Virus record (IMG/VR): IMGVR_UViG_3300008267_000606
Location: 1 to 52,112 of that record
Length of the DNA: 52,112 bases
DNA from: a virus
Strand: one strand, 5' to 3'
The notes beneath the pieces are model-generated. The model did not search any database and was not told where the DNA came from. It was given only the letters and a program-made list of their open reading frames with translations. The position numbers and the translations under genes are program-made. This document shows, one piece after another, positions 28,112 to 30,420 of the stretch (the stretch's first letter is position 1; each line of letters starts with the position of its first letter).

Positions 28112-28219
28112 ATGATGTCACTTAAAATTAAAAAGAGAGGTGGAGATGATGCGTCATTTAATCCACAGAAAATTTATAACCGTATTAAAAGAGCTTCAAA
28201 GGGGTTGAGTGTCAACTAA
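28112..28219 (+). pseudogene. Detached start of the NrdA ATP cone (frame-broken remnant)
   Basis: This 35-residue reading frame starts at ATG 28112 (a second ATG follows at 28115) and reads MMSLKIKKRGGDDASFNPQK then IYNRIKRASKGLSVN before TAA. That is the first half of an ATP cone, the regulatory domain at the start of most NrdA proteins. The next ~45 residues of the domain are absent, and the NrdA body resumes at once (from about 28216) in another frame with RLASSVAISSYHKE, which equals the end of the cone. So the gene has lost about 140 bases and its frame here. It may be a real deletion, or an assembly error. If real, the peptide is probably not functional. Confidence 0.6.
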
Positions 28220-28221
28220 GA

Positions 28222-30420
28222 TTGGCTTCGTCAGTTGCTATTTCATCTTATCACAAAGAAACTGACCCAAGTTTTTCAAATACCATGCATACTTTACACG
28301 TTGATGGTGTTGTGAGTAATGAATTAATGAAAATTGTTGAAGATTATGGACCTAGCAATATTGATGCAATCATTAATCACGATAATGATTATAACTTTGA
28401 TTATTTTGCTTGGAGGTCACTAGCTGAAATGTACTTATTGAAATTACCTGATGGTAAAGTTGTTGAAAGACCACAACATATGTATATGAGAGTCGCTCTT
28501 TGGGTAACTAATACATTTGAAGAGGCGGTTGAGTATTACCAAGCACTATCTAGTCAAAGAATATCACCAGCAACACCAATTATGATTAATGCTGGTACAA
28601 AAGTTCCACAACTTGCGTCTTGTGTTCTTCATTATAATGATTCAGATTCTCGTGAAGGGTTGTTAAACACCATGAGAGATATCTCTACTTACTCATCTGA
28701 CGCTGCGGGTATCGGACTATCAATGTCAAACATTCGTAGTAAAGAAAGTCGTATTACATCTTCAGGCGGATATGCGGGTGGACTTTTGAAATACTTGAAG
28801 ATTGTTAATGAGTCACTCCGTTTCTTTAACCAACAAGGACGTAGACCTGGTTCTGCGGCAATCTACTTGGAACCTTGGCATAAAGACATTTTTGATTTGT
28901 TAGATATTAAAAAGAACACAGGCGCTGAAGAATTAAGAGCTCGTGATTTGTTCACGGCACTTTGGATTCCTGACAACTTCATGAGAGCGGTTAAAAATAA
29001 TGAAGATTGGTATTTGTTCTGTCCTAACGATATTGTAAAAGCGGGTATTAAACCATTACAAGAAAGTTATGGTACTGAATATGAAGAAAATTACCAATTA
29101 GCTGTAAACATGGGTCTTGGTAAGAAAGTTAAAGCACAAGAAATTTGGAATAAGATTATTGAATCACAAGTTGAAACAGGTGTTCCATATCTATGTTCTA
29201 AAGATAGTGCTAACAAAAAGACAAACCATCAGAACATTGGTGTAATTAAACAATCAAATCTTTGTAATGAGATTTACCAATATACTGATGAAAATACAAC
29301 AGCAATTTGTACTCTATCATCTATGGTGTTGAAGAACTATGTGAAAGACGGTGAGTTCGATTTCAAAGGGTTATATGACGAAACACGTAAGGTTGTTAGA
29401 GCGTTGAACAAAGTTGTTAATATCAACAACTACTCAACTGAAAAAGGACGTAAAGGTGGATTGGAGCAAAGAGCAATTGCTATTGGAACCCAAGGACTTG
29501 CTGACGTATTCTATTTGATGGATTATATTTTCACATCAGAAGAAGCACGTAAGTTAAATAAAGAAATTTTTGAAACTATCTATTTCGCAGCAATCACTGA
29601 AAGTAATAGATTGTGTATGGAAGGTCAGTATGAACCATATACTTACTTCCATGGTTCACCTATGTCAAAAGGAGTATTCCAATTTGATATGTGGGGATTA
29701 AATGAAGATGATTTATCAGGAAGATGGCCTTGGGATGTTCTAAAAGAAAATGTTAAAAAGTATGGTGTTTGTAACTCTTTATTCACGGCTCAAATGCCTG
29801 TAGCGTCTTCAGCTAAAATCACTGGTTCATATGAAATGACCGAACCTGCTCACTCAGCAATCTTTAACAGACGTGTGGTAGGTGGGGAGATTATGATTGT
29901 AAACAAATATTTGATTAATGATTTTGAAAAGATTGGTATTTGGTCAGAGGATTTAAAGAATGAAATTATCATGAATGAAGGTTCAATTCAAAATATTAAC
30001 TTTAATAACTACCTTGACCAAGAGGATAAAAGATATAATTTTAAAGTTAAAAGAACTGAACACCTTATTAACAAATACAAAACTATTTGGGAAATATCAC
30101 AAAGAGAATTGATTGAAATGGCGGCTGACAGAGCACCGTTTATTGACCAGTCACAGTCAATGAATATCTACATGTCAAACCCAACATTATCAAAGATTTC
30201 ATCATCACATTTCTACGGATGGGAAAAAGGTTTAAAGACACTTTGTTACTATGTTAGAACAAGGGCAATTTCAACAGGAGCTAAACACTTGGCGGTTGAT
30301 ATCACAAAGGTAACAAAACCTAAACCAACACCCGAACCACCGAAGGTAGATTACAGTTATATGAATTTACCTCCAAAACCTGAGAATAGTGACTTTGATT
30401 GTTTTGGTTGTTCTTCTTAA
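28222..30420 (+). CDS. nrdA: Ribonucleotide reductase large subunit (NrdA, class Ia), ATP cone truncated
   Basis: 732 residues from a TTG at 28222; the first in-frame ATG is at 28285. The catalytic barrel is complete: Cys134 in LASCVLHYN and its partner Cys in AICTLSS form the redox pair, SNLCNEI carries Asn346, the thiyl Cys348 and Glu350, CYYVRTRA carries the Tyr pair for radical transfer, and the end is DCFGCSS with the Cys727/Cys730 reductant pair. It reduces ribonucleoside diphosphates with NrdB. The protein is close to eukaryotic R1, but the N-terminal ATP cone, which sets overall activity, is reduced to its last few residues. The start is therefore uncertain. A terminator follows. Confidence 0.9.
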   Translation: MASSVAISSYHKETDPSFSNTMHTLHVDGVVSNELMKIVEDYGPSNIDAIINHDNDYNFDYFAWRSLAEMYLLKLPDGKVVERPQHMYMRVALWVTNTFEEAVEYYQALSSQRISPATPIMINAGTKVPQLASCVLHYNDSDSREGLLNTMRDISTYSSDAAGIGLSMSNIRSKESRITSSGGYAGGLLKYLKIVNESLRFFNQQGRRPGSAAIYLEPWHKDIFDLLDIKKNTGAEELRARDLFTALWIPDNFMRAVKNNEDWYLFCPNDIVKAGIKPLQESYGTEYEENYQLAVNMGLGKKVKAQEIWNKIIESQVETGVPYLCSKDSANKKTNHQNIGVIKQSNLCNEIYQYTDENTTAICTLSSMVLKNYVKDGEFDFKGLYDETRKVVRALNKVVNINNYSTEKGRKGGLEQRAIAIGTQGLADVFYLMDYIFTSEEARKLNKEIFETIYFAAITESNRLCMEGQYEPYTYFHGSPMSKGVFQFDMWGLNEDDLSGRWPWDVLKENVKKYGVCNSLFTAQMPVASSAKITGSYEMTEPAHSAIFNRRVVGGEIMIVNKYLINDFEKIGIWSEDLKNEIIMNEGSIQNINFNNYLDQEDKRYNFKVKRTEHLINKYKTIWEISQRELIEMAADRAPFIDQSQSMNIYMSNPTLSKISSSHFYGWEKGLKTLCYYVRTRAISTGAKHLAVDITKVTKPKPTPEPPKVDYSYMNLPPKPENSDFDCFGCSS

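Follow-up and report, generated by a model that had tools for sequence, protein, structure and literature searches.

In the window, the whole stretch of 52,112 nucleotides analysed here, the nrdA gene is split into two pieces in different frames, and part of its ATP cone is missing. Comparison with other contigs indicates that this loss is almost certainly an artefact of assembly, and that the phage itself would encode an ordinary class I NrdA whose N-terminal ATP cone is complete. The argument for an assembly fault in nrdA rests on a contig of the same virus that is otherwise identical and has the intact gene. The sequence-only reading had instead led with the loss of the cone and of dATP feedback, with more dNTP as the outcome. 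That claim is unsupported, since the same virus carries the cone segment. The window is a virus record that lacks end repeats and is probably a fragment.

The nrdA break in the window

The features of the region are as follows.

27132..28091, + strand: nrdB (small subunit), intact and immediately upstream of nrdA (Pfam PF00268 at 27132-28088)
28112..28219, + strand: 5′ piece of nrdA with the first part of the ATP cone (from the ORF list; Pfam PF03477, profile positions 2-28 of 88)
28217..28218, no strand: nrdA junction at which 124 nt are missing (from exact comparison with L002/G001; the segment is also in L027)
28222..30420, + strand: 3′ piece of nrdA in another frame, with the end of the cone, the all-alpha domain and the catalytic barrel (Pfam PF00317 and PF02867)

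The ORF at 28112-28219 encodes 35 residues, MMSLKIKKRGGDDASFNPQKIYNRIKRASKGLSVN*, and terminates in a TAA that is an out-of-frame stop made by the junction itself. The ORF of the NrdA body begins with a TTG at 28222, two bases past that stop. The earlier description of a 35-residue ORF followed by the NrdA body in another frame is thus borne out by both the ORFs and the Pfam matches. The break is genuine as a feature of the window's sequence, and chance similarity is ruled out. That DNA is missing was also correctly read, but its size (~140 bases, or about 45 residues) was not: precisely 124 nt are absent, that is 41 codons (41 residues) plus one base and so not a multiple of three. The junction at 28217/28218 is blunt, and no microhomology was found there in the exact comparison with L002/G001.

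With an all-alpha N domain and a ten-stranded barrel (PF00317, PF02867), and with an adjoining gene for the ferritin-like small subunit NrdB (PF00268), the window has what is expected of a class I RNR and its alpha subunit. Most, though not all, class I NrdA proteins also have a complete N-terminal ATP cone (PF03477), which the sister copy has and the window copy lacks, the match of its 5′ piece reaching 22 bits, under the Pfam cut-off of 25.8. Relocation of the cone to NrdB was considered and rejected, as PF00268 is the sole Pfam family in that protein.

An intact copy in a sister contig and further clean losses

Scanning viral contigs with the NrdA body turned up a sister contig, L002 (IMGVR_UViG_3300008450_000423), whose protein is 100% identical. 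Its DNA equals that of the window over 27928-28217 and again from 28218 on, with 124 extra bases between. The 5′ piece of nrdA is thus the same in both contigs up to base 28217, and the 3′ piece shows 100% identity. There are 0 substitutions between the sister contig and window positions 27928-52112, over 24,185 window bases. In L002 the nrdA frame is open through 810 residues and includes a complete ATP cone, matching PF03477 over profile positions 2-87 of 88 with 33.2 bits against the cut-off of 25.8. The sister contig also continues beyond the 3′ end of the window, where it enters a series of short, degenerate repeats (L091 1-245), which probably codes for a fibre or adhesin.

Three further clean losses were found in the window by comparison with contigs that share 100% or more than 99% identity with it.

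9420..9422, no strand: second clean loss, 53 nt, by which a single gene is divided into ORFs 8090-9430 and 9501-10067
47036..47037, no strand: third clean loss, 72 nt, leaving ORF 44167-47061 in frame (segment in the sister contig, G001, and in the relative L027)
48864..48865, no strand: fourth clean loss, 79 nt, a frameshift that truncates ORF 47064-48884 (segment in G001 and L027)

The two ORFs split by the 53-nt loss near 9421 are 446 and 188 aa long; in L110 (IMGVR_UViG_3300031951_001508), which is the same or almost the same as the window here, 53 additional nt join them into one frame of 676 aa, and the extra bases at this site are also present in L109 and L121. ORF 47064-48884 encodes a SprB-repeat protein (Pfam SprB). 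Three of the four clean losses in the window shift the reading frame. The converse is seen as well: L121 (3300008266_009722) is without two segments of about 95 and 79 nt (L121 4082-4083 and 3709) which are present in the window, and otherwise matches the window at 100% over that part. Such a scatter of losses over contigs that are otherwise the same points to assembly and not to evolution.

The overlaps at the four junctions in the window are 0, 0, 1 and 1 base. Junctions that are practically blunt argue against repeat collapse, which was rejected as a cause together with microhomology, and no tandem repeats were found in the window at the sites of loss. A mobile or repeated segment was also rejected, each missing stretch being single-copy in the sister contig. 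When folding was compared post hoc, the missing segments tended to be more stable than segments drawn at random from the contig, of which 7.7%, 7.5% and 0.7% were as stable; a stable fold could lead to a deletion or to a drop in coverage.

Gene breaks were looked for by comparing seven proteins of the region across 80 relatives, and broken genes turned up at three loci only (L043, L048 and L072). All three fall in the 33000081xx-84xx series, giving 3 of 10 loci there versus 0 of 70 elsewhere (Fisher p=0.0015), where the series is defined by contig numbers alone and the grouping was made after the breaks were seen. Five contigs identical or nearly so to the window (L002, L109, L111, L121 and L123) are numbered in this series, and through that identity the window would appear to belong to the faulty series too.

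Relatives, rival explanations and the origin of the losses

The cone and body lie in one unbroken frame in 125 fetched loci, representing 75 distinct DNA sequences. The 124-nt cone segment is carried by L027, a relative of 104 kb that shares about 82% identity with the window. Relatives with an intact cone had been named beforehand as a finding that would refute the cone's loss, and the relatives do have the cone. Within the cone coding sequence there is an inverted repeat with a 7-base stem and a 4-base loop (L002 318-335 and homologous sites), kept in many relatives and changed on both sides in some. Stem changes mostly track synonymous codons, and the conservation of the repeat is probably a matter of codon choice.

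A real local deletion of 124 bp, by which some of these phages would carry a null, frameshifted nrdA and draw dNTPs from the host enzyme, is very improbable. Such an allele is what the window contig itself presents, auxiliary phage genes can be lost, and a separate break exists at nearly the same site in L072 (3300008267_006535; L072 1005-1021), where 101 nt of nrdA are lost out of frame with a different junction. Against this, three clean losses and 0 substitutions in the same 24 kb, with a fourth loss elsewhere, would have to be explained, and losses free of substitutions fit the faulty joining of contigs far better than they fit evolution. The 24-mer spanning the window's junction was found in no other viral contig in a search of the collection. 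Searching with a pattern for cones that had lost 100-130 nt produced 11 matches, all 11 of them chance matches in unrelated genes and none in nrdA, although the pattern demands specific codons and would overlook some relatives, L072 included; the same kind of search over an interval of the barrel, as a control, gave no matches. L072, moreover, belongs to the same faulty sample series. Its different 101-nt loss could nevertheless hint at a real deletion-prone site, and is the counterpoint to an artefact; that the cone segment is such a site, with frameshifted alleles in a minority of phages and the window and L072 as two independent examples, is a shade less probable even than a single local deletion, and a deletion hot spot is not needed to account for the data.

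The scarcely credible alternative is that translation re-initiates at TTG 28222 and yields a functional NrdA without a cone, which is insensitive to dATP and so favours dNTP production. Re-initiation is conceivable, with stop and TTG start two bases apart; the Pseudomonas aeruginosa enzyme without its N-terminal cone kept specificity regulation while losing overall activity regulation (PMC3267527), and the viral NrdAe and class O enzymes are without cones (PMC9669993). All of the evidence that places the 124 nt in the same virus speaks against this, and a cone loss under selection would be expected to preserve the frame. In a genuinely cone-less viral RNR the frame would be open and the cone absent from the virus and its relatives alike, whereas here the frame is broken and the relatives retain the cone, with Asp at the position equivalent to Asp57 of mammalian R1 in 123 of the 125 loci.

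An assembly artefact accords with a break that is absent from an otherwise identical contig and accompanied by several unrelated losses of the same kind in the window contig. Assembly error had in fact been offered as the alternative in the sequence-only reading, and it is upheld by the identical contig with its intact cone and by the three additional clean losses. An assembler or scaffolder may have joined two contig ends over a short unassembled stretch; alternatively, the filler of a scaffold gap may later have been removed. Either event would have removed 124 nt from the cone and put the rest of nrdA in another frame, and the same fault would have occurred at the three other sites in the window. 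Since de Bruijn graph assembly alone does not usually make a blunt junction with no overlap, a step of scaffolding or gap removal must be assumed. That segments are missing, and that the window is otherwise fully identical to sister contigs, are direct observations; the pipeline step responsible is one that we infer. In the metagenome-derived viral contigs of this set, clean losses of 50-125 bases mimic gene decay, split genes and domain loss, and claims of a broken gene or a lost domain drawn from such contigs should first be compared with a near-identical sister contig.

Comparison with known enzymes

The closest solved structures to the NrdA of the sister contig are those of eukaryotic R1 (human 5d1y/3hnc and yeast 1zyz), with an alignment over its residues 6-765 that starts at the cone and extends through the whole barrel (E 7e-196). 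Like the eukaryotic proteins, it belongs to the class with a single N-terminal ATP cone and keeps the residue equivalent to Asp57; the window copy differs from them in lacking 124 nt and being out of frame, which we ascribe to assembly. Change of Asp57 to Asn in mammalian R1 abolishes discrimination between dATP and ATP (PMC3267527), and conservation of the equivalent residue suggests that the phage cone can bind dATP. Binding is not proof of inhibition, however, because the cones of the phage T4 and Trypanosoma brucei enzymes bind dATP and the enzymes are uninhibited (PMC3267527).

Among named phages, the closest enzymes are the NrdA proteins of Tenacibaculum phage pT24 and Cellulophaga phage phiST, with 41-43% identity over the body. 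As in the window, nrdA of pT24 is immediately preceded by nrdB but, unlike in the window, it is annotated as one uninterrupted gene. The viral NrdAe and cyanophage class O enzymes have no ATP cone, as appears to be the case for the window copy, and because cone loss is known in these other viral enzymes (PMC9669993), even a real loss in nrdA would not be of a new kind. Their loss is stable across whole clades (PMC9669993), whereas that in the window occurs in one contig and is contradicted by an identical sister.
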